Virus record (IMG/VR): IMGVR_UViG_3300037826_000044 | Span: 1 to 33,114 of that record | Length of the DNA stretch: 33,114 nt | Direction: 5' to 3' (one strand) | Origin: a virus | Shown here: in pieces, positions 1 to 31,234 of the stretch | Layout: every line of letters starts with the position of its first letter | How positions within the stretch are numbered: the first letter of the stretch is position 1 | The notes under the pieces: model-generated | Told to the model about the DNA's origin: nothing | Databases searched by the model: none | The model's input: only the letters and a program-made list of their open reading frames with translations | Made by a program: the position numbers and the translations under genes

Positions 1-248
1 AATCAGAGTTGCACCCAACCATGAAACCCGTTGAACTGGTAGAGCGCGCCATCAATAATAGCAGCAGAGACAATGGCCTTATTATCGACTGGTTCCTCGG
101 TTCCGGCACAACCATCATCGCCGCCCACCGTACCGGACGCCGCTGCTATGGGTGCGAGATATCGCCGGAGTATTGCGAGATTATCCTACAGCGTTGTGAG
201 GCGGAAGGGTTGACGGTGGAGAAGGACGGGGCGGAGTTCTACCCATGA
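1..248 (+). CDS. Beta-class (N4/N6) DNA methyltransferase, C-terminal part
   Basis: The reading frame is open through the left edge, so only the last ~80 residues are visible. They contain the conserved HPTMKPVELV segment followed by the SAM-binding motif I, here WFLGSGTTIIAA, then GRRCYGCEI. Having motif I near the C-terminus is the arrangement of beta-class amino-methyltransferases that modify adenine N6 or cytosine N4. The catalytic DPPY/DPPW motif must lie upstream of the window. The last ~45 residues are nearly identical, also at DNA level, to the end of the next gene, so the two share a recent duplication or gene conversion. The stop overlaps the next start (ATGA), implying coupling. 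Target base and sequence cannot be told from this fragment. Confidence 0.9.
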   Translation, partial: SELHPTMKPVELVERAINNSSRDNGLIIDWFLGSGTTIIAAHRTGRRCYGCEISPEYCEIILQRCEAEGLTVEKDGAEFYP

Positions 249-1546
249 TTGAACCAATCGAAACCACACGCGGCATTGACACGCTGGCACCGCACCCGCG
301 CAACTACAACCAGCATCCGCCAGAGCAGATTGCACGTATCGCCAAAAGCCTCGTGCAGTTTGGGCAGGTACGCCCGATTGTAGTGCACGGCGATACCATC
401 ATCGCAGGCCACGGTGTGTGGATGGCGGCTGCTGCGCTGGCTGACCCTGTGGTCAATGAGGCGATGTTACGCGGATATGTGTTTGATGACACCACACATA
501 CCTATGAACAATGGTGCGAGCATAGGCATGACACATTTCAATCGTTGCGCGTCACCCAACTACCCGATGACTGGACAGAAGAGCAAGCCATGGCCTACCT
601 CGTAGCTGACAACGAGACGCGACGTGGCGCTGAACCCGACGATGCCGAACTGGCCGCGCTGCTCGACGAGTTGCAGCAGGCTGATTTTGATATCGCCGCG
701 ATGGGCTTTGACGATGCCGAGTATAGCGCGCTGTTGGATGGGTTGACGCCGGAATTGCCAGAACCCGGCAGCGGCGGCGATGAGTTTGAACCCGATGAGA
801 ATGCGCCGTGCCGCGTGCAGCCGGGTGACGTGTGGCTCATCGGTGGCGTGCATCGCCTGATTTGTGGGGACTGCACCGACCCAGCGACGGTGGATCGGCT
901 GATGCAGGGGGAGCGGGCGGATGCGGTGATATACGACCCTCCGTGGGATGCTGCCGTGTCGTATACAGCAGACACAACTAGTACTGTGCTGGCATTTTGC
1001 GATGGGCGACGCGCCGCTGATGTTATAACGCTATTTGGCTCCCCTACGTGGGTATTTGTATGGGATTGTGTAACATCGTGGTATACCCCTAATCGTCCGT
1101 TGCAACGAGGCAAATTCGCGTTTTGGTATGGGGATGTTGCAAATTACCAATTTGATGGCGCACATTACGGTGAGGTCGGTGATGAACGCATAGTACGCAA
1201 TACACGCGGAGAATATGAATTTACGCCTGATCCTCGTGGCAAGCACCTGTCTGATGTATTTGTTGCCCCAATAACCAAACTACATGCCGATGGTCGCCAT
1301 TCTCACGAAAAACCGCTGGATTGGGTGCGCATGCTGATTGCAAATTGCACTGACGGGGTGTTGTTTGACCCCTTCCTCGGCTCCGGCACAACCATCATCG
1401 CGGCACATCGCACCGGACGCCGCTGCTATGGGTGCGAGATCAGCGAGGCATACTGCGAGGTCATCTTGCAACGCTGCGAGGCGGAGGGACTTATAGTAGA
1501 GCGAGTTGCTCAGTCTTTGCAGGAGCCGAACCGTGATGCTGTGTGA
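245..1546 (+). CDS. ParB-like domain fused to beta-class DNA methyltransferase
   Basis: The 433-residue protein has two parts. Residues ~5-165 form a ParB/Srx-like domain (LAPHPRNYNQHP, then QVRPIVV, then IIAGHG), common in front of phage methyltransferases. Residues ~190-415 are the methyltransferase, with catalytic DPPW at 231-234, the HEKP segment near 354 and SAM-binding FDPFLGSGTT at 374-383. DPPW suggests an N4-cytosine or N6-adenine target. Compared with the paralogous ParB domain at 2474, it carries about 30 extra residues around 62-98, just after the GHG motif. Start ATG overlaps the previous stop. Its last 56 bases overlap, tail to tail, the radical SAM gene on the other strand. The likely role is modification of phage DNA against host restriction. 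Confidence 0.88.
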   Translation: MIEPIETTRGIDTLAPHPRNYNQHPPEQIARIAKSLVQFGQVRPIVVHGDTIIAGHGVWMAAAALADPVVNEAMLRGYVFDDTTHTYEQWCEHRHDTFQSLRVTQLPDDWTEEQAMAYLVADNETRRGAEPDDAELAALLDELQQADFDIAAMGFDDAEYSALLDGLTPELPEPGSGGDEFEPDENAPCRVQPGDVWLIGGVHRLICGDCTDPATVDRLMQGERADAVIYDPPWDAAVSYTADTTSTVLAFCDGRRAADVITLFGSPTWVFVWDCVTSWYTPNRPLQRGKFAFWYGDVANYQFDGAHYGEVGDERIVRNTRGEYEFTPDPRGKHLSDVFVAPITKLHADGRHSHEKPLDWVRMLIANCTDGVLFDPFLGSGTTIIAAHRTGRRCYGCEISEAYCEVILQRCEAEGLIVERVAQSLQEPNRDAV

Positions 1547-2333
1547 TATAGCGCGGGTTTTCGTATCCCACCGGGAGATATCCTTGCAGGTCTTTCTTGA
1601 TGTAATGCCGCACGCCAAGGCGATGGCACAAATCAAGAATGCGATGGGTGTACCTCTCCCAGTCAGTCGTTCCGGTCATCGGCAGATAGTTTGCCCTGCC
1701 GATTTTATACAGATTAACAAATTCGTGCGTATGCTCAATGATCTGCAAACTGGCCTCGGTACTCAATGTCGGCTCCAGGCTGACCCACGTGAAGATACCC
1801 GCCTTGTGGAACAGACGCAACGTATTGATGCGATCATCGGGAACTGCTGCACCGCGTTCCCATTTCTGGCTGAAATCAGCATCCAACGACGTGAGCGTGC
1901 TGGCGAACGCATCCCGCTCTGGCCTGAACAAATCAAGGTCGCGCAACGCACGACTGCCGCCCTTTGTGAGCGTGCAAATGCCCAGACCATGGGCTTGCAA
2001 CGTTTGCAGCACATGACGCGTGAGCGAGTTGTCAAATGGGTGGTAGGGGTCTGTGGTGAACGACAGCATCACCTGTTCGGTGATGTCAAGTTCCTGGTAC
2101 TTCACCGCATCCTTGCGCAACTTATCAATAAACTCGGGGCGCGGCTCCGCACCGGCGTCAAACTCGGGACGCGGCATGCGCAGCACTTTGGGCACATAGC
2201 AATAGGCGCACTGATGCCCGCATCCGCGATAGGGGTTTGTGGCCAGCCTGGAATACTCGCCAGCTTGCCCGCGTGGGGCATAGATAATCGAGCAGCCTTT
2301 GACGCTCCAGCCGTCGGGGTTCAGGGTAGGCAT
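1491..2333 (-). CDS. Radical SAM protein, SplB/COG1533-like
   Basis: The protein has about 280 residues. The cluster-binding motif CxxxCxxC is seen as RGCGHQCAYCYVP (Cys38, Cys42, Cys45), followed by a radical SAM barrel with LSFTTDPYHP, LTKGG and SLEPTLS strand segments. Proteins of this kind resemble spore photoproduct lyase and its uncharacterised relatives and cleave SAM to a 5'-deoxyadenosyl radical. I chose the ATG at 2333 because a GGAG stands just upstream; the frame could extend 11 codons further by a rare ATT. It is the only minus-strand gene in the left half, has its own likely promoter and sits between two copies of a ParB module. A part in DNA base modification or repair is possible, but the substrate is unknown. 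Confidence 0.85.
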   Translation of the reverse strand: MPTLNPDGWSVKGCSIIYAPRGQAGEYSRLATNPYRGCGHQCAYCYVPKVLRMPRPEFDAGAEPRPEFIDKLRKDAVKYQELDITEQVMLSFTTDPYHPFDNSLTRHVLQTLQAHGLGICTLTKGGSRALRDLDLFRPERDAFASTLTSLDADFSQKWERGAAVPDDRINTLRLFHKAGIFTWVSLEPTLSTEASLQIIEHTHEFVNLYKIGRANYLPMTGTTDWERYTHRILDLCHRLGVRHYIKKDLQGYLPVGYENPRYITQHHGSAPAKTEQLALL

Positions 2334-2430
2334 AACAGTCTCCGTTCTGTTGTCTCCGATAATCAATGGGGCTGCCGTTCGGAGAGTCCGGCGTTGTCAC
2401 GTGCTGATCAGGCGCGTCTAGCCCATGTCT

Positions 2431-2473: not shown

Positions 2474-2995
2474 ATGATGACTGAACCAATCGAGACAACA
2501 CGCGGCATTGACACGCTGGCACCGCATCCGCGCAACTACAATCAGCACCCGCCAGAGCAACTTGAGCGACTGTCCGCCAGCCTGCGCCAGTTCGGGCAGG
2601 TGCGCCCGATTGTAGTGCACGGCGATACCATCATCGCAGGCCACGGCGTGTATATGGTAGCGCAGCACCTTGGCTATAGCACGCTTCGCGTCACGCAACT
2701 GCCCGACGACTGGACAGAAGAGCAGGCGCTCGCCTACCTCGTCGCCGACAACGAGACGCGACGCGGGGCTGAATCCGACGACGCCGGACTGGCAGCACTG
2801 CTCGATGAGTTGCAGCAGGCCGATTTTGATATTGCTGCGATGGGCTTTGACGATGCCGAGTATAGCGCATTGCTCGATGGGTTGACGACGCAAGAGGTTG
2901 ACGCTCCGGAAGGGTTTGGGGAATATGACGAAAACATTGAAACAGACTACTGCTGCCCGAAGTGCGGCTATGAATGGTCAGGCAAGCCAAAATAA
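2474..2995 (+). CDS. ParB-like domain protein with C-terminal zinc ribbon
   Basis: Residues ~1-140 closely repeat the ParB-like domain of the gene at 245 (IDTLAPHPRNYNQHP, RPIVVHGDTIIAGHG, LPDDWTEEQA), without the ~30-residue insertion found there. Where the paralog continues into a methyltransferase, this 173-residue protein ends with CCPKCGYEWSG, which looks like one half of a zinc ribbon. The C-terminal coding sequence overlaps the start of the C5 methyltransferase by 71 bases. It may be a stand-alone partner for that enzyme or the remnant of a methyltransferase that lost its catalytic domain. Start could be either ATG of the ATGATG pair; homology to the paralog favours the second. No strong ribosome-binding site is visible. 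Confidence 0.8.
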   Translation: MMTEPIETTRGIDTLAPHPRNYNQHPPEQLERLSASLRQFGQVRPIVVHGDTIIAGHGVYMVAQHLGYSTLRVTQLPDDWTEEQALAYLVADNETRRGAESDDAGLAALLDELQQADFDIAAMGFDDAEYSALLDGLTTQEVDAPEGFGEYDENIETDYCCPKCGYEWSGKPK

Positions 2996-3986
2996 GCCAC
3001 CGTATCGCGTGCCATCTATGGACGAAATTGCAGCCGTGCCCTGGAATGGTTACACTGCGATCTCTACATTTAGCGGGTGCGGCGGGTCGTCACTTGGCTA
3101 CAAGATGGTGGGGTTTCGGGTGTTGTGGGCTAGTGAGTTTGTGCCAGCCGCGCAAGAGGTGTATCGCCTGAACCACCCTGACACTATACTTGACACCCGT
3201 GATATACGACAGGTGCAATCATCAGAGATACTAAGTGTCATAGGAATGCAGCGTGGTGAACTCGACTTGCTTGACGGCTCGCCACCGTGTGCATCGTTCT
3301 CGACTGCGGGCAAGCGTGAGGCAGGTTGGGGGAAAGTCAAGCAGTATAGCGATGTAAGACAACGTGTTGATGACCTGTTTTTCGAGTATGCGCGTTTGTT
3401 GGAAGGATTGCAACCCCGTGTGTTTGTTGCTGAAAATGTGAGTGGACTTGTGAAAGGCTCGGCAAAAGGGTACTTCAAGTTGATACTGCAAACCCTAAAG
3501 GACTGCGGCTACAACGTCAAGGCACAGGTGCTTGACGCGCAATGGCTTGGGGTTCCACAGATGCGACAGCGCCTCATCTTTGTTGGGGTGCGGAATGATT
3601 TGGATATTGCGCCCGTGTTTCCCATGCCGCTGCCCTATCGGTATACAGTGCGTGAATGTCTTCCGCACATTCGTCGCATTCGGCTCGGCGGTCACCCTGA
3701 AAATTGGAAGGCGAGTGACAGGCCAGCAGCGACTGTTACACAATCTGACGGGGCAAGAGAGAATCTTACTGCCTATCTCAGTAGTTATATGATAGAGGAT
3801 AGTAAAAAAAATATTAGAAAATACAACATTCCAGAACTACGTTGCATCTGCGCCTTTCCTGATGATTTCCAACTTACTGGTACGTTTGCTCAGCAATGGG
3901 AGCGACTTGCTCGCGCTGTTCCGCCGGTGATGATGTCGCATATTGCCGCAACGATACGAGATGAGATATTATGCAAGATATCATAG
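2925..3986 (+). CDS. dcm: C5-cytosine DNA methyltransferase with unusual motif X (Arg for Asn)
   Basis: The 353-residue protein shows the ordered motifs of the family: I, STFSGCGGSSLGY (47-59); IV, GSPPCASFS with catalytic Cys122; VI, AENV (169-172); VIII, QMRQR (212-216); IX, RPAATVTQ (266-273); and, before motif X, FPDDF (311-315). Motif X normally reads GNAVPP; here it is ARAVPP, with Arg330 (codon 3912-3914) in the Asn place next to the cofactor sulfonium. That Asn is the residue whose change to a basic one let an engineered CpG methyltransferase (M.MpeI) use carboxy-SAM, as I recall. The next gene is CmoA-like and overlaps by 16 bases. I therefore infer a carboxymethyltransferase, not an ordinary methylase. 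The start ATG at 2925 has GGGG just before it; an ATG at 2970 is an alternative. The target-recognition region is short. Confidence 0.93.
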   Translation: MTKTLKQTTAARSAAMNGQASQNKPPYRVPSMDEIAAVPWNGYTAISTFSGCGGSSLGYKMVGFRVLWASEFVPAAQEVYRLNHPDTILDTRDIRQVQSSEILSVIGMQRGELDLLDGSPPCASFSTAGKREAGWGKVKQYSDVRQRVDDLFFEYARLLEGLQPRVFVAENVSGLVKGSAKGYFKLILQTLKDCGYNVKAQVLDAQWLGVPQMRQRLIFVGVRNDLDIAPVFPMPLPYRYTVRECLPHIRRIRLGGHPENWKASDRPAATVTQSDGARENLTAYLSSYMIEDSKKNIRKYNIPELRCICAFPDDFQLTGTFAQQWERLARAVPPVMMSHIAATIRDEILCKIS

Positions 3987-4672
3987 TTCCAAAAAGCACC
4001 TGGCAGTTTGACGAGGATGTTGCCCTTGTTTTTGATGACATGCTACAGCGCAGCATCCCGCAATATGAAGTGATGCGCACAACGGTGTATGAACTCGGTT
4101 GCCACTTTGTACAGACAGGTACACACATCGTTGACCTTGGTTGTTCACGAGGCGCCGCGCTTGCGCCGTTCGTTGCCCGCTATGATACCGATTGCTCATA
4201 TATCGGCATCGATACAAGCGCACCGATGATTGAAGCGACTCGTGAGCGGTTTGTAAATCATCCTGGCGTATCAATCCAGGATACTGATCTTCGCACGTCA
4301 TATCCTGATGTACAGGCAAGTGTTACCCTCTGCGTACTCACCTTACAGTTTGTGCCTATCGAGTATCGACAGCGAATACTCCGCAGCGTTTATCGACACA
4401 CAGCCCCCGGTGGCGCGTTGTTGCTTGTTGAAAAGGTCATGGGCGAAACTGCTGACATTGACGATGTGATGGTACGCGACTATTACACGATGAAGGCGCG
4501 TAACGGATATAGCCAGGAACAAATAGAACGCAAACGCCTAAGCCTGGAAGGTGTCCTGGTGCCTGTTACGGCCCGATGGAATGAGGCAATGCTACATAGC
4601 GCTGGCTTTCAGCAAGTCGATTGCTTCTGGCGGTGGATGAACTTTACAGGTTGGCTTGCAATTAAAGATTAG
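3971..4672 (+). CDS. cmoA: CmoA-like carboxy-S-adenosylmethionine synthase
   Basis: This 233-residue class I SAM-fold protein matches CmoA along its length: WQFDEDVALVFDDMLQRSIP near the N-terminus, VDLGCSRGAAL (motif I, 54-64), IGIDTSAPMIE (78-88), TLQFVP (124-129), PGGALLLVEK (146-155), NGYSQEQIERKR (178-189) and LHSAGF (208-213). CmoA converts SAM and prephenate to carboxy-SAM, normally for CmoB and wobble-uridine modification of tRNA. Arg189 aligns with the Arg199 of E. coli CmoA that, from memory, binds the carboxylate of the product. No CmoB is visible, and the gene overlaps the C5-cytosine methyltransferase, so the product is likely used on DNA. An alternative is a relative with a different SAM chemistry. 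No strong ribosome-binding site precedes it, so translation is probably coupled. Confidence 0.88.
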   Translation: MQDIIVPKSTWQFDEDVALVFDDMLQRSIPQYEVMRTTVYELGCHFVQTGTHIVDLGCSRGAALAPFVARYDTDCSYIGIDTSAPMIEATRERFVNHPGVSIQDTDLRTSYPDVQASVTLCVLTLQFVPIEYRQRILRSVYRHTAPGGALLLVEKVMGETADIDDVMVRDYYTMKARNGYSQEQIERKRLSLEGVLVPVTARWNEAMLHSAGFQQVDCFWRWMNFTGWLAIKD

Positions 4673-4686
4673 AACAAGGCTAGCAT

Positions 4687-5112
4687 ATGGCACGCAAACC
4701 TACCGCAGCCGAATACCAGAAGCGCATTAATGAGGTGTATCTCGCTCTCATCAATGGCAGCAGTAGGCAAGATATACATCGTTATGCATCGAAAAAATGG
4801 GGAGCCAATGATCGCAGCACTGATGCTCTCATTGCTCGTGCTCGCAAGCGGTTAGACGAGGAAGCCGCTGAATATCGCGCTACGGCAATGGCTGAACATC
4901 TCGCAGCGCGTCGGCAACTGCGTAAGCAAGCGGCACAGGATAAAGACAAGCGTTTGGTGTTGGAAGTGCTGCGAGATGAGGCAAAGCTGTTGGGATTGTA
5001 TGAACCGGAGAAGGTACAGCAAGAGCAAGATGGCAAGCAGCGAATCGAGATTGTCTATGTCAACAACCCGGACAACCAGGACAACCCGGATACACTTGAT
5101 AGTACCACATAG
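4687..5112 (+). CDS. terS: Terminase small subunit, probable
   Basis: The 141-residue protein has a helix-turn-helix-like N-terminal half (ALINGSSRQDIHRYASKKWG, then DRSTDALIARARKR), a charged, probably coiled-coil middle (AARRQLRKQAAQDKDKR) and a polar Asp/Asn-rich tail. This layout fits small terminase subunits, which bind the packaging site on phage DNA and hand it to the large subunit. The identification rests mainly on its place directly before and overlapping the large subunit gene. An AAGG lies upstream of the ATG. Confidence 0.72.
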   Translation: MARKPTAAEYQKRINEVYLALINGSSRQDIHRYASKKWGANDRSTDALIARARKRLDEEAAEYRATAMAEHLAARRQLRKQAAQDKDKRLVLEVLRDEAKLLGLYEPEKVQQEQDGKQRIEIVYVNNPDNQDNPDTLDSTT

Positions 5113-6280
5113 CGCACAGCAGCAGGTTACCAGCGAGGCTAGGCGCTACAATGTGGTGGCCTGCGGGCGGCGTTGGGGCAAAACGACGCTTGGCATTGAT
5201 CGTCTCATCCATCCTGCATTAAATGGCAAGCCGGTTGCTTATTTCATCCCGACCTACAAGATGCTGGCGGAGGTATGGCGCGAAATGTCGCATGTCCTGT
5301 CGCCAATCGTGGCGCGAGTGTCGGTACAACAAAACCGACTCGAACTGACAACTGGAGGCGTTGTGGATATGTGGAGCCTGGAACGCGAGTCGGTGCGCGG
5401 ACGTAAATATACGCGTGTGGTGATTGATGAGGCGGCTATGGTGCGCGATCTGGCAGACGCATGGCAAGCGGTCATCAGGCCAACCCTCACTGACTATCGC
5501 GGGGATGCGTGGATGCTGAGCACCCCGAGGGGTCGCAACTTTTTTTGGGAGTGTTTTCAGCGCGGAATGGGTTGTGATCCGCAATGGCGCGCCTGGCAGA
5601 TGCCCACGAGTACCAACCCGCATATCAGCCCCGAAGAGATAGAAGCCGCTCGGCAAGAATTGCCACGTGTCGTATTTGAACAAGAGTACCTTGCGCAGTT
5701 TGTGAAGAGCGATACGGCGGTTTTTGATGAGCAAGACATTGCCAATGCTGCCGACGGTGCAACAGGCGAGCAGACGCCACACCGCACGGGCGCATACCTG
5801 ACCAGTGTAGACGTTGGACGCAGGCAGGATGCGACCGTCATCAACGTGTTTGATATGGCTGTACAGCCGGTGCAGCGCGTCTATCACGAGCGGGTAGAAC
5901 GCATACCGTATCCTGTCATACAGCAGCACATAGAGCAGGTGTGGCATCGCTATGGCGGGGCGCTCGTGATTGAAAGCAACGGTATCGGCGATCCTCTGAT
6001 CGAAAATCTTGCCGTGCCTGCTGAGCCGTTTGTTACGAGTAGCAAGAGTAAGGTGCAGGCCATTCAGGCGTTGCAATTGCTCCTTGAGCAGGGCGGCCTC
6101 AAGGCCGAATGGACAGAGCAGGAACGCCGCGAACTGATGGGGTACCAGTGGGATGACCGCAACCTGGTGCAGGACTGCGTAATGAGTTTGGCGATAGGCG
6201 CGTATCATATCACAGCCGCGCCGCACGAGACGCATGTCATCAACTACACCGATGACATTCCAGGGATATCGGGGTGGTAG
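5057..6280 (+). CDS. terL: Terminase large subunit
   Basis: This is the ATP-driven packaging motor and headful or site nuclease. The Walker A motif is GRRWGKTT, preceded by the conserved VVACGRR strand; the Walker B region reads VVIDEAAMV; the coupling segment is LSTPRGRN. The C-terminal RNase H-like nuclease has its first acid in TSVDVGRRQDATV and a second in VIESNGIGD, and a late conserved block in YQWDDRNLVQDCVMSLAIGAY. The 5' end is uncertain: the ATG at 5057 gives ~407 residues but overlaps terS by 56 bases, while a TTG at 5096 would start shortly before the conserved AQQQV segment with a smaller overlap. The stop is five bases before the portal start. Confidence 0.93.
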   Translation: MSTTRTTRTTRIHLIVPHSAQQQVTSEARRYNVVACGRRWGKTTLGIDRLIHPALNGKPVAYFIPTYKMLAEVWREMSHVLSPIVARVSVQQNRLELTTGGVVDMWSLERESVRGRKYTRVVIDEAAMVRDLADAWQAVIRPTLTDYRGDAWMLSTPRGRNFFWECFQRGMGCDPQWRAWQMPTSTNPHISPEEIEAARQELPRVVFEQEYLAQFVKSDTAVFDEQDIANAADGATGEQTPHRTGAYLTSVDVGRRQDATVINVFDMAVQPVQRVYHERVERIPYPVIQQHIEQVWHRYGGALVIESNGIGDPLIENLAVPAEPFVTSSKSKVQAIQALQLLLEQGGLKAEWTEQERRELMGYQWDDRNLVQDCVMSLAIGAYHITAAPHETHVINYTDDIPGISGW

Positions 6281-17346: not shown

Positions 17347-18034
17347 TGTTCTGATTGCTGTCCCCATCCATACCGGTATCCATCGGCGCACCTTGGACAG
17401 TCTATTCCAGTTGCAGCACAGTCGCGCATACCAGTCTGACATCGTGATGCTGCGAGGTGGTGATGAGCACATCGCCGACGCCAAAACACGCATCGCGTGG
17501 AAATACAACCAGGCGCGAGATCTCTGCCTGCGCGGCAACTATGACTACCTACTGACGGTTGAGCAGGACATCGTATTCGAGAAGGACTCGCTCACGCGAA
17601 TGATTACCACGATCGACGAACACGCCGCGGATGTCGGTTATTCGCTTTACTGTTTCCGACAACCACCGTTCTACCGCTGGAATGCGTTCCCGGCGATGGA
17701 TAATGTCACGTTCACCGGGCAATCATTGTCATTTTTTCCAGAGCGGGCTCGGGCGGCGTGGGGGCATGTGATTGAATGCGAAGGGCAGGGCAATGGTTTC
17801 ACGCTCATTCGTCGCCGCGTTCTGGAGCGCATTCGCTACCGCGTCGAGCATCGCATCGGGGATGGTGCGCATAGTTCGCAAGATACCTTTTTCGCATTTG
17901 ACTGCCAGATGGCAGGCATCAAACAGGTGTGCGATACCAGTATCGTATGCGGGCATATTGATCAGCAGAACGGCGCGTTTGTCACGTTGTGGCCGGATAT
18001 TAACGAGGAGAAAATGCACAGGATTGAGGCATGA
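17339..18034 (+). CDS. Glycosyltransferase, GT-A type
   Basis: The 231-residue protein begins with VLIAVPIHTGIHRRTLDSL, a typical first strand and helix of GT-A glycosyltransferases, and has YLLTVEQDIVFEKDSL (70-85) where a DxD-like metal site is expected, here Glu-Gln-Asp. GNGFTLIRRRVLERI and HSSQDTFFAFD follow as in nucleotide-sugar enzymes. Overlap with both neighbours by a few bases places it inside the tail operon. It could glycosylate phage structural proteins or DNA bases; the substrate is unknown. Confidence 0.78.
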   Translation: MSNVLIAVPIHTGIHRRTLDSLFQLQHSRAYQSDIVMLRGGDEHIADAKTRIAWKYNQARDLCLRGNYDYLLTVEQDIVFEKDSLTRMITTIDEHAADVGYSLYCFRQPPFYRWNAFPAMDNVTFTGQSLSFFPERARAAWGHVIECEGQGNGFTLIRRRVLERIRYRVEHRIGDGAHSSQDTFFAFDCQMAGIKQVCDTSIVCGHIDQQNGAFVTLWPDINEEKMHRIEA

Positions 18035-19140
18035 GCGAGTACCCAACACTAACCATTATCACTGCATTGAGCAGGCCGAGGTATCTACCGGGCATATTCG
18101 ACAGCCTGAACGCTGCCGAGGGGCACAACCTGGATATTCGGCATTATATCATTCATTCGCACGGTGCCACGCATCCGGGCAATGGATGTGCCGATACGGC
18201 ACGCAATATTGACGCGGCGCTGTCCAATATCCGCGATGGGTGGGTCTGGATCTTGGATGATGACAATAGCGTGCATCCGGGGTTCTTTCGGCGGCTAGAG
18301 GAGGAAATCGCAGCACACCCAGATGCGCGGGCGTTTGTGTTCTCGCAGGAGCGAGCAGACGAGCGGCGTCTGTTGCAGGCCGCACCAGAGAACGTTCGCA
18401 TTGGCAGCATTGACACAGCGCAGTTTGTGTTACGCCGCGATCTCATTGGCGACCTGCGATGGTGCGGAATCCATGGGCATGACGGTATTTTTATCCAGGA
18501 ATTGTATGAGCAACACCCGAAAGAATTTCACTTTGTAGACGAGGTGCTATGTTATTACAACCGCCAATCGCACGGCCCACCGCGTCATGTGATGGTCAAT
18601 CTGGGGTGTGGGAGCGACGTGCGCGATGGCTGGATCAACATTGACAGCGCGCCGCGTGCGGGTGTCCGGGCGCACGACATTCGCCAGGGGCTGCCGTTTT
18701 TTAACAACAGCGTTGATTACATCTACGCATCGCACGTTCTTGAGCATCTTGATTATGGCGTCGCGCTAAGACTGATTAACGAGTGCCACCGGGCTCTGCT
18801 GCCTGGGGGCGTTGTGCGGCTCGTGCTGCCGGATGTGCCGCGCCTGCTGGCTGACTATGTGCGCGGGGACATGTCAGACTGGCAGGGATTGGCACCATTC
18901 GTCTGCTCTGCCATTCCTGGCGTAGAGGAACCGCAACCGATTGATTACGTCAACGCTATCATTTTTAACGTGGCACGCGACCCGCACCGCTATGTCTGGG
19001 ATGTGCCGCGCCTGTGCGATGTGCTATTGGCAGCTGGCTTTGCAACAGCGGAGCCGGTTGCATTCGACAGCCGCATTGATATCGATGACCCATTCAGAAC
19101 TGATCATTCATTTTATGTAGAAGCTCGTAAGGAGGGCTAA
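18031..19140 (+). CDS. Glycosyltransferase-methyltransferase fusion
   Basis: The 369-residue protein has two domains. Residues 1-~180 are GT-A-like with TLTIITALSRPRYLPGI and a clear acidic triplet in WVWILDDDNSVHPGF (76-78), and a late acidic HGHDGIF. Residues ~186-369 are a class I SAM methyltransferase with VNLGCGSDVRDGWINID (motif I), LPFFNNSVDYIYASHVLEHL, LLPGGVVRLVLPDVPRLL and a C-terminal helix with LLAAGF. Sugar addition followed by methylation of the same glycan is a plausible pathway. It starts in an ATGA overlap with the previous glycosyltransferase, so the pair are a unit lying between tail terminator and tail tube. Confidence 0.85.
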   Translation: MSEYPTLTIITALSRPRYLPGIFDSLNAAEGHNLDIRHYIIHSHGATHPGNGCADTARNIDAALSNIRDGWVWILDDDNSVHPGFFRRLEEEIAAHPDARAFVFSQERADERRLLQAAPENVRIGSIDTAQFVLRRDLIGDLRWCGIHGHDGIFIQELYEQHPKEFHFVDEVLCYYNRQSHGPPRHVMVNLGCGSDVRDGWINIDSAPRAGVRAHDIRQGLPFFNNSVDYIYASHVLEHLDYGVALRLINECHRALLPGGVVRLVLPDVPRLLADYVRGDMSDWQGLAPFVCSAIPGVEEPQPIDYVNAIIFNVARDPHRYVWDVPRLCDVLLAAGFATAEPVAFDSRIDIDDPFRTDHSFYVEARKEG

Positions 19141-28594: not shown

Positions 28595-29179
28595 TCATTT
28601 TCCAATCACCTCCAACCCGATAGTGCCCGTAGTTATGGCGCTGTGCATGTCGGCACCATCGAGATTAGCACCGCTCAGGTCGGTATAGCTCAAAATGGCG
28701 TAACTCAGGTCAGCCCCGCTCAGGTCGGCATAGCGCAAGTCGGCCTCGCTCATGTTTGCTCTGTGCAAGTCGGCCCCGCTCAAGATGGCCCCGATCATGT
28801 CGGCATAGCTCAGGACGGCCCAGCGCAGGTCTGCACCGCGAAAGTCTGCCCCGCTCAAGTCGGCCCAACACAGGTTAGCACCGCTCAGGTCGGCACCGTG
28901 CAGAACAGCTCCGCTCATATTCACCTCGATCAGGTCAGCACTGCGCAGGATGGCCTCGCTCATGGTAGCCCTGCGCAAGTCTGCCTTGCGTAGGTCGGAC
29001 CTACTTAGGGCAGCCCCGCGCAAGTCGGCCATGCGTAGGTTGACCCTGCGTAGGTCGGCCCTGCGCAGGTCGGCCCTGCGCAGGTCGACCTTGCGCAGGT
29101 TGGCATAGCTAGCACCATCCTGATTCGGGTTCATTAGCCACATCTTGTGTGACTGTAAAATGTTTTGCAGATCAATCAT
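28595..29179 (-). CDS. Pentapeptide-repeat protein 1
   Basis: The 194-residue protein is almost wholly A(D/N)LXX repeats from residue ~25 to 185, which fold as a right-handed quadrilateral beta-helix. The N-terminus IDLQNILQSHKMWLMNPNQD is shared with the two other copies and is therefore part of the family. Pentapeptide proteins of the MfpA/Qnr type mimic DNA and bind gyrase, but no such target can be read here. AGGAGGGT precedes the ATG and a stem-loop lies just upstream. It is the second gene of an operon with the acidic 78-residue protein. Confidence 0.93.
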   Translation of the reverse strand: MIDLQNILQSHKMWLMNPNQDGASYANLRKVDLRRADLRRADLRRVNLRMADLRGAALSRSDLRKADLRRATMSEAILRSADLIEVNMSGAVLHGADLSGANLCWADLSGADFRGADLRWAVLSYADMIGAILSGADLHRANMSEADLRYADLSGADLSYAILSYTDLSGANLDGADMHSAITTGTIGLEVIGK

Positions 29180-29191
29180 CTGTACCCTCCT

Positions 29192-29214
29192 GCCCGGATA
29201 CGATGCCTCCGGGC
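29192..29214 (-). promoter_or_regulatory. Stem-loop before the pentapeptide gene, copy A
   Basis: GCCCGGA (29192-29198) pairs with TCCGGGC (29208-29214), 9-base loop, ending a few bases before the AGGAGG of the pentapeptide gene. No T-run follows, so it is more likely an RNA stability or translation element. A copy is at 31247-31269. Confidence 0.6.
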
Positions 29215-29231
29215 GGGCGTAAAAACATTAG

Positions 29232-29468
29232 TTACACATGGTCAGCGTCAACGTCGTCATCGCTAACCTGGTCATCGAAACCTATCTCTATACCCTCGTC
29301 CCATCCAAACACCAGACATCCGTCGTCATCCCTGTAGAGTCCGCCGCTCTCGTCGTACCACCGAACCAGTTCCAATCCGTTCTCAACCGCTACGTCGCGT
29401 ACAGTTTTCCCGTCTACCATCTGTTCGTTCAGTGCGTCAATCCGTGCCTGGCTCATTACTCGTGTCAT
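29232..29468 (-). CDS. Acidic 78-residue protein, copy A
   Basis: The protein begins MTRVMSQARIDALNEQMVDG with a helix-turn-helix-like KTVRDVAVENGLELVRWYDE, then ends in a very acidic tail (FDDQVSDDDVDADHV). A GAGAGGA site precedes the ATG. It is the first gene after the palindromic promoter and is almost the same as the protein at 31287. The acid tail could mimic DNA or bind a basic partner; function unknown. Confidence 0.78.
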   Translation of the reverse strand: MTRVMSQARIDALNEQMVDGKTVRDVAVENGLELVRWYDESGGLYRDDDGCLVFGWDEGIEIGFDDQVSDDDVDADHV

Positions 29469-29482
29469 TATTCTGTCCTCTC

Positions 29483-29514
29483 AATTCATTCATTCAATTC
29501 ATTCATTCATTCAA
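29483..29514. repeat. ATTC microsatellite in the leader, copy A
   Basis: Between promoter and ribosome-binding site the + strand reads blocks of ATTC, three and then four units separated by A. The matching leader at 31534-31554 has two and two units. Confidence 0.85.
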
Positions 29515-29515
29515 C

Positions 29516-29551
29516 TGACACCATTGTAGCACTATGATACAGTGGTGTCAA
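29516..29551 (-). promoter_or_regulatory. Promoter within a palindrome, copy A
   Basis: On the minus strand TTGACA (29546-29551) and TACAAT (29523-29528) have a 17-base spacer. The arms TGACACCA-TGTA and TACA-TGGTGTCA (29516-29528, 29538-29550), 12 of 13 symmetric, span the promoter and are a likely operator. Confidence 0.85.
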
Positions 29552-29603
29552 TAGCTGTGAGGGATATGATAGCAAATTACTGCATAATTGGTCATAGATG
29601 AAC

Positions 29604-29628
29604 GGGGTGTCAATCATCCTGACACCCC
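29604..29628. promoter_or_regulatory. Inverted repeat GGGGTGTCA-N7-TGACACCCC
   Basis: Perfect nine-base arms surround seven bases at the 3' end of pentapeptide gene 2. The TGACACC core equals that of the promoter palindromes, so it may be a further operator or, as RNA, a weak terminator of operon B. Confidence 0.6.
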
Positions 29629-30273
29629 ATTCATGCCAGGTGCCGAACCCAACCCGATAGTGCCCGTAGTTATGGCACTGCGCAGATCAACCCTGCGCAG
29701 ATCAGCCCTGCGCAAGTCTGCCCCGCTCAGGTTGGCCATGCGCAGGTCTGCGCCGCTCAGGTTGGCGACGTTCAGGTCTGCGCCGCTCAGGTCGGCACCG
29801 CTCAGGTTTGTGTAGCTCAGGTTTGCGTAGCTCAGGTCGGTGTTGCGTAGGTTTGACCCGCTCAGGTCTGCACCGCGCAGATCGGCCCCGATCATGTCGG
29901 TCTTGCTTATGTCGGAATAACGCAGGATGGCATGACTCAGGTTGGTATTGAACAGGTCTGCAATGTGCAAATCGGCCCTGCTCATGTCGGCACTACGCAA
30001 GTCAGCCCTGCGCAGGTTGGCACCGCTCAGATTGGCCCTGCTCATGTCGGCACTACGCAAGTCAGCCCTGCGCAGGTCTGCACCGCTCAGGATGGCCCAG
30101 CGCAGATTAGCACCACTCAGGTCAACCCAGCGCAGGTCTGCACCGCGCAGGTCAGCCCCGTTCAGGTTGGTACCGCGCAGGTTAACACCGCGGAGATTAG
30201 CGGGTTTTGCACCATCCTGATGCGGATTTTGCAGCCATAGTCGATGTGCCTGCAAAATGTTTTGTGTGTCCAT
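29614..30273 (-). CDS. Pentapeptide-repeat protein 2
   Basis: The 219-residue protein starts in a TAATG overlap with the helix-turn-helix gene. Its N-terminus DTQNILQAHRLWLQNPHQDG is like that of the two paralogs, then ~35 A(D/N)LXX repeats follow. It has no acidic partner gene directly before it. It ends operon B. A gyrase-binding or other DNA-mimic role is possible but unproven. Confidence 0.93.
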   Translation of the reverse strand: MDTQNILQAHRLWLQNPHQDGAKPANLRGVNLRGTNLNGADLRGADLRWVDLSGANLRWAILSGADLRRADLRSADMSRANLSGANLRRADLRSADMSRADLHIADLFNTNLSHAILRYSDISKTDMIGADLRGADLSGSNLRNTDLSYANLSYTNLSGADLSGADLNVANLSGADLRMANLSGADLRRADLRRVDLRSAITTGTIGLGSAPGMNGVSG

Positions 30274-30527
30274 TATTCCCCCGTAGCGCCATCATTTTTC
30301 GTTCTTCGCCTATACTGCTGCCGTTCGCTGAGTTCCTCCAGCGATTTCCGTGCCCGCTGACCACGCTCTGCGGCATAGCGTTCCACGCTGTCGCGGGTAA
30401 TGCGAGCGGTACGATTAGTGCCTGGTACACGTTCCAGGCGTCCACGTCGGATATATGTATACACCGTGCGCACGTGGACGCCGAGAAACTTGGCAACCTC
30501 GGCTGTGGTCATAGTAGTGTCAGTCAT
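30273..30527 (-). CDS. Helix-turn-helix protein, MerR/excisionase type
   Basis: The 84-residue protein has the HTH_17 pattern: MTTAEVAKFLGVHVRTVYTY, IRRGRLERVPGTNRTARITR and DSVERYAAERG, as in excisionases and small DNA-binding regulators. A basic tail follows. ATG at 30527 overlaps the stop of pentapeptide gene 3 (ATGA), and the stop overlaps the start of gene 2 (TAATG), so it is locked inside the operon. It may regulate through the nearby TGTCA-N7-TGACA element. An ATG at 30512 is an alternative start. Confidence 0.88.
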   Translation of the reverse strand: MTDTTMTTAEVAKFLGVHVRTVYTYIRRGRLERVPGTNRTARITRDSVERYAAERGQRARKSLEELSERQQYRRRTKNDGATGE

Positions 30528-30535
30528 CCTGACAC
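30517..30535. promoter_or_regulatory. Inverted repeat GTGTCA-N7-TGACAC
   Basis: It covers the start of the helix-turn-helix gene and shares core and spacer (TCATCC) with the element at 29604-29628. It is a possible autoregulatory site. Confidence 0.45.
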
Positions 30536-31234
30536 CTCGCACCTGAAACCAGGTGCCGACTCCAACCCGATAGTGTCCGTAGTTATGGCACTGCGCAGGT
30601 CTGCATCACTCAAGTCTGCGCCGCTCAGGTTAGCACCGCTCAGGTCGGCCCCGCTCAGGTTGGCATCACTCAGGTCGGCATAGCGCAAGTCGGCCTTGCT
30701 GAGGTTGGCCATGCGCAGGTCGGCCCCGCTCAGGTCTGCGCCGCTCAGGTCGGCCCCGCTCAGGTTGGCATCACTCAGGTCGGCATAGCGCAAGTCGGCC
30801 TCGCTGAGGTTGGCCATGCGCAGGTCTGCGCCGATTAGGATGGCCCAGAACAGGTCGGCATAGCTCAGCACGGAGTATCGCAAGTTCGCACTGCTCAGGT
30901 TGGCACCGCTCAGGTCTGCGTTGCGTAGATTGGCATAGTTCAGGTCGGCAATGTGCAGAATAGCGTCGCTCATGATCACCTCGATCAGGTCAGCACTGCG
31001 CAGGATGGCCTCGCTGAGGTTAGCCCTGCGCAAGTCTGCCTTGTATAGGTCGGAATTGCTCATGGCAGCCCCGCGCAAGTCTGCCCTGCGCAGGTCGGCC
31101 CTGCGCAGGTCGGCCCTGCGCAGGTCGGCCCTGCGCAGGTCGGCCATGCGTAGGTCGGCATAGCTAGCACCATCCTGATTCGGGTTCATCAGCCACATCT
31201 TGTGTGACTGTAAAATGTTTTGCAGATCAATCAT
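30524..31234 (-). CDS. Pentapeptide-repeat protein 3
   Basis: The 236-residue protein is the longest of the three, with the family N-terminus IDLQNILQSHKMWLMNPNQD and about 38 repeats. Two blocks within it, at 30610-30700 and 30720-30820, are nearly identical, showing growth by internal duplication. AGGAGG precedes the start with a stem-loop upstream. It overlaps the helix-turn-helix gene by four bases. Confidence 0.93.
   Translation of the reverse strand: MIDLQNILQSHKMWLMNPNQDGASYADLRMADLRRADLRRADLRRADLRRADLRGAAMSNSDLYKADLRRANLSEAILRSADLIEVIMSDAILHIADLNYANLRNADLSGANLSSANLRYSVLSYADLFWAILIGADLRMANLSEADLRYADLSDANLSGADLSGADLSGADLRMANLSKADLRYADLSDANLSGADLSGANLSGADLSDADLRSAITTDTIGLESAPGFRCEVSG

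Follow-up and report, generated by a model that had tools for sequence, protein, structure and literature searches.

A stretch of viral DNA of 33,114 nucleotides, referred to here in its whole length as the window, carries adjoining, overlapping genes for homologs of CmoX and CmoA, and the pair very probably constitutes a phage module for DNA modification that consists of two genes and belongs to the published CmoX-CmoA kind. That the locus is a further example of this kind, reduced to a minimal two-gene set, rather than a new discovery, is well supported. The features of the window considered in this analysis are as follows.

245..1546 (+): N4/N6 DNA methylase with a fused ParB-like domain, a separate modification enzyme; its ParB part duplicates the gene at 2474-2995
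1491-2366 (-): radical-SAM protein (PA0069/Rv2578c-like, phrog_13321), between two ParB genes
2474..2995 (+): protein with a ParB-like domain and, at its C-terminus, a zinc-ribbon-like end (CPKCGYEWSGKPK); the gene overlaps the CmoX start
2925..3986 (+): CmoX homolog, predicted DNA cytosine C5-carboxymethyltransferase, 353 aa from the ATG at 2925 (Pfam, PDB sequence and fold matches)
3971..4672 (+): CmoA homolog, predicted carboxy-SAM synthase, 233 aa (TIGR00740, phrog_4752, Arg189)
4687..5112 (+): small gene lying between those for CmoA and terminase, where a terminase small subunit is usually encoded; similar small genes recur
4976..6280 (+): terminase large subunit; terminases recur beside CmoX-CmoA loci
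18031-19140 (+): protein encoded within the tail gene region, weakly matching glycosyltransferases and methyltransferases
28595-31234 (-): three consecutive pentapeptide-repeat proteins

The published system is that of Synechococcus phage S-B43 (Yang et al., Nat Commun, 7 Dec 2025; PMC12783734). The CmoA of this phage makes carboxy-SAM, and its wild-type CmoX (SpCmoX) accepts only carboxy-SAM, giving 5-carboxymethylcytosine (5cxmC) at GC as the product. Arg350 of SpCmoX contacts the carboxylate (PDB 8YF3) and was equated with Asn304 of M.HhaI; DNA modified in this manner resists HhaI. A ligase, CmoY, adds glycine to 5cxmC, and native S-B43 DNA contains the glycine amide, free 5cxmC being absent. 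Yang et al. also surveyed IMG/VR, UniProt, and MGnify, obtaining 5,615 CmoX candidates with SPPC and Arg, in the context of which they found 4,257 CmoA, 2,251 ligases, and 1,660 ParB-domain proteins (PMC12783734). Because the sequences were chosen for Arg, this survey is silent on enzymes that lack it. Within the collection of papers searched, no other work dealt with natural CmoX of phages. That a DNA base is naturally made using carboxy-SAM came as a surprise in 2025, and the window locus contributes a minimal version with only two genes; novelty is not supported for the chemistry proposed by the sequence-only reading, which the December 2025 report had already described.

The CmoX frame is intact from the ATG at 2925, which is immediately preceded by a GGGG stretch, to the stop at 3986, with a TTG upstream at 2898. 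A start at the alternative ATG at 2970 is possible because the homology conserved in most relatives starts near residue 16. The protein matches the Pfam DNA_methylase family with 178.5 bits (E 3e-52). Motif IV reads SPPC, with C122 (bases 3288-3290) as the nucleophile, and motif X reads RLARAVPPVMM, in which the usual Asn is replaced by Arg (R330, bases 3912-3914). R330 shares an alignment column with Arg350 of SpCmoX, which bears out the earlier suggestion that the motif X of this enzyme is changed in a way that would fit carboxy-SAM. The closest sequence match in the PDB is 8YF3 (E 1.2e-62), the S-B43 enzyme with carboxy-SAM, and the same entry is the top fold match (E 8.2e-26) of the predicted structure, for which the mean pLDDT was 83.7. 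Three marks of a CmoX, these being a C5-methyltransferase fold with SPPC, the motif X Arg, and an associated CmoA, are found for the window enzyme. The target-recognition region is unlike that of SpCmoX, and the GC target may therefore not carry over.

The CmoA frame runs from an ATG at 3971 to the stop at 4672 and overlaps the end of CmoX by 16 bases. The complete C5-cytosine methyltransferase and the full-length CmoA described from the sequence alone both stand as intact frames on the + strand (2925-3986 and 3971-4672). The top NCBIfam model for the CmoA protein is TIGR00740 (carboxy-SAM synthase CmoA), matched over residues 9-232 of 233 with E 2.3e-53 at a score of 181.3 bits, slightly below the curated cut-off of 193.3; the protein also belongs to phrog_4752 (E 6.5e-79). 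Its Arg189 (bases 4535-4537) aligns with Arg199 of E. coli CmoA, which forms a salt bridge to the carboxylate of carboxy-SAM (PMC3663124). Comparison with the nearest relative (L003) gave dN/dS values of approximately 0.25 for CmoX (0.136/0.535), 0.09 for CmoA (0.027/0.304), and 0.13 for the upstream ParB/zinc-ribbon gene, indicating purifying selection on each.

Two forms of CmoA occur among the loci, and that of the window is of the canonical kind. At 107 loci only a lower-scoring CmoA is present, with about 25% identity to the window CmoA in the examples compared. Where individual examples were read, the column of Arg199 holds Glu, which by alignment is also the residue of the active CmoA of S-B43. 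We considered whether the lower-scoring matches are generic methyltransferases; against this, TIGR00740 was the best model for 10 of 10 sampled and phrog_4752 was matched by 5 of 5. This divergent subfamily (L021, L025, L029, and about 100 more loci) is paired with Arg-type CmoX, and its members are putative carboxy-SAM synthases.

The sequence-only reading had proposed, as a check, a search for other neighbouring pairs of C5 methyltransferase and CmoA along with their motif X residue. We fetched homologs by C5-methyltransferase queries only, recorded the residue in motif X and the surrounding genes, and counted distinct proteins above 250 bits. CmoA was found near 147 of 153 Arg-type enzymes and near none of the 25 with another residue. 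The pattern was the same in the subset with at least 2 kb on both sides (Arg with CmoA, 84; Arg without, 1; other residue with CmoA, 0; other without, 11). Five of the six Arg-type exceptions lie within approximately 1.3 kb of a contig end, and no CmoA was found on the entire contigs of 15 Asn-type enzymes and one Leu-type enzyme. A simple Fisher test on the loci with 2-kb flanks (p 1e-13) makes the evidence look stronger than it is, since the homologs share ancestry. In a tree from which the motif X residue and the positions next to it had been left out, Asn types occur at several places within the Arg tree, one being a 14-member clade and another (L034) lying near the group of the window, the direction of change not being given by the tree. 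A tree-based test found 4 independent Arg/other pairs on supported branches (p 0.125), too few for significance; the direction of these pairs was the expected one in almost all random pairings and the opposite one in none. This comparison with Arg-less relatives is an addition to what the survey of Yang et al. covered. Among other residues, Met occupies the motif X Asn position (GMSVPPxM), with no CmoA, in a clade mostly of Bacteroidota and their phages (L287-L303, L313, L314, L317).

By analogy with the homologous S-B43 system, which has been demonstrated biochemically and structurally, the proposal made from the window sequence that carboxy-SAM is used to make 5-carboxymethylcytosine is supported, the same residues and pairing being present and Arg and CmoA being coupled across approximately 200 homologs. 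CmoA would convert SAM and prephenate to carboxy-SAM. CmoX would flip out the cytosine, Cys122 would attack C6, and the carboxymethyl group would be moved to C5, with Arg330 selecting the carboxylated cofactor. The predicted outcome is 5-carboxymethylcytosine in the phage DNA, where it probably blocks host restriction enzymes. What we infer in this way for the window phage is the activity, the target sequence, the benefit, and whether 5cxmC is final or further converted by a ligase encoded outside the fragment.

An enzyme of this type could also use ordinary SAM to produce 5-methylcytosine, with CmoA as unrelated cargo. The fold of CmoX is indeed the general C5 methyltransferase fold, and several close relatives have the motif X Asn and are without CmoA. 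However, the window has Arg330 and an adjoining, overlapping CmoA, Arg and CmoA go together across the homologs, and carboxy-SAM is the sole cofactor taken by wild-type SpCmoX (PMC12783734), leaving the use of SAM very unlikely. It is equally necessary to consider that CmoA serves tRNA wobble modification (cmo5U) through a host or phage CmoB rather than DNA modification, a role known for bacterial CmoA and reflected in the annotation of its phage family as tRNA methyltransferase. The search of the 33-kb window with PF08003 gave no CmoB match, in agreement with the earlier statement that none is seen, and CmoA accompanies the Arg form of the DNA methyltransferase, none having been found beside the Asn form. 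We consider a tRNA role extremely improbable on these grounds, and retain the assignment of the pair as a DNA modification module.

Comparison with characterized and named systems places the window pair more precisely. The S-B43 system (PMC12783734; 8YF3) consists of the same two enzyme families, with SPPC, the motif X Arg, and CmoA alongside, its CmoX being 36% identical to that of the window. The gene order in S-B43 is CmoA-CmoY-CmoX, including the amide ligase, whereas that of the window is ParB-CmoX-CmoA, and CmoY was not seen in the 33 kb. Streptomyces phage TurkishDelight (gp122-125, NC_073473) is closer, having a ParB whose zinc-ribbon-like end is very similar, a CmoX approximately 61% identical to the window enzyme, and CmoA; unlike in the window, a CmoY-like gene, asparagine-synthetase-like and with a glutamine amidotransferase domain, lies between CmoX and CmoA. 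The 258-kb Pseudomonas phage PaBG (00176-00180, KF147891) has the order ParB, CmoX, CmoA as in the window, but its CmoX is approximately 47% identical and a CmoY-like gene follows downstream. As cited in the S-B43 report, the N374K variant of M.MpeI shows that a C5 methyltransferase can use carboxy-SAM when the motif X Asn is replaced by a basic residue, although this enzyme is engineered and CG-targeting and carries Lys rather than Arg (PMC12783734). In E. coli tRNA wobble modification, CmoA makes carboxy-SAM, as is predicted for the window CmoA, but the acceptor is tRNA hydroxyuridine through CmoB, which was not found in the window.

A second question is whether 5cxmC is the final base. We tentatively propose that 5cxmC itself, which is negatively charged, could be the final virion DNA base in the window phage and in relatives lacking CmoY, unlike in S-B43. 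It could also be an intermediate that a ligase of the CmoY type or of another family, encoded beyond the 33-kb fragment, makes into an amide, a possibility of which we are no more than half persuaded and which would extend the proposed mechanism. The S-B43 DNA contains the glycine amide with no free 5cxmC (PMC12783734), the window is an IMG/VR-type virus record of 33 kb that may be a fragment, and CmoY-like genes occur near 52 of 148 homologs with Arg and CmoA, a lower bound because small profiles were used within 9 kb. On the other hand, PF00733 (the asparagine-synthetase-like ligase) has no match in the window, even with the threshold relaxed to E 10, or in the records of the relatives L020 (60 kb) and L004 (40 kb), and no other recurrent ligase family is apparent among CmoX-CmoA neighbours. 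For the latter, the neighbours of 180 loci with Arg and CmoA were clustered in search of a substitute for CmoY; the common families, judged by eye with not all clusters annotated, were ParB, terminase, portal-type, and small genes.

The gene order in the window is ParB/zinc-ribbon, CmoX, CmoA, small gene, terminase, and portal. Genes of ParB, terminase, and portal-type families are also recurrent neighbours at other CmoX-CmoA loci. From its position and recurrence, the small gene at 4687-5112 may encode the terminase small subunit. Directly upstream of the methyltransferase, the ParB/zinc-ribbon gene is present for 119 of 153 homologs of the Arg type and for 18 of 24 of the Asn type. Since it is kept by the Asn types, this gene is tied to the methyltransferase rather than to the chemistry of carboxy-SAM; the ParB association was described by Yang et al. 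without the distinction between Arg and Asn (PMC12783734). The methyltransferase family occurs in an Arg form accompanied by CmoA and in an Asn form lacking it, with the ParB partner kept, and the cofactor switch is therefore directly testable. Close natural pairs for this purpose are the window enzyme and the enzyme of L034 or L024. The remaining interest of the locus lies in this natural Arg/Asn switch and in the possible terminal 5cxmC.

Several CmoA homologs lie in fetched stretches without CmoX (L045-L047, L049, L051, L052, L074, L078, and L113, the last from Alcaligenes phage Afa-NA1). The Afa-NA1 homolog has adenine methylases, thymidylate synthase, and dTMP kinase close by. Possibly the acceptor of the CmoA product is a different one at such loci. 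Single verrucomicrobial MAGs contain multiple CmoX-CmoA copies (L251, L254-L271, L285, L305), with approximately 7 matches in JAOSKK, 6 in JAKQDD, and 3 in JABTUJ; terminase-like neighbours suggest that these copies reside in prophages.

Upstream of the module, the ParB DNA is duplicated, the repeats 245-425/2477-2657 and 543-754/2682-2893 being 86-87% identical. The duplicated DNA (245-754, 2477-2893) flanks the radical-SAM gene, and an additional repeat pair (93-221/1373-1501) is 78% identical. The radical-SAM protein was considered as a hypermodification enzyme for 5cxmC and was rejected, a C5 methyltransferase being found at 2 and a strong CmoA at none of the loci of its 80 viral relatives. 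These relatives are 54-97% identical, have ParB-like genes at 45 of the 80 loci, and have neighbours mostly on the opposite strand. A relative of the radical-SAM protein is also present at L296 and L314, which are loci of the Met-type C5 methyltransferase clade.
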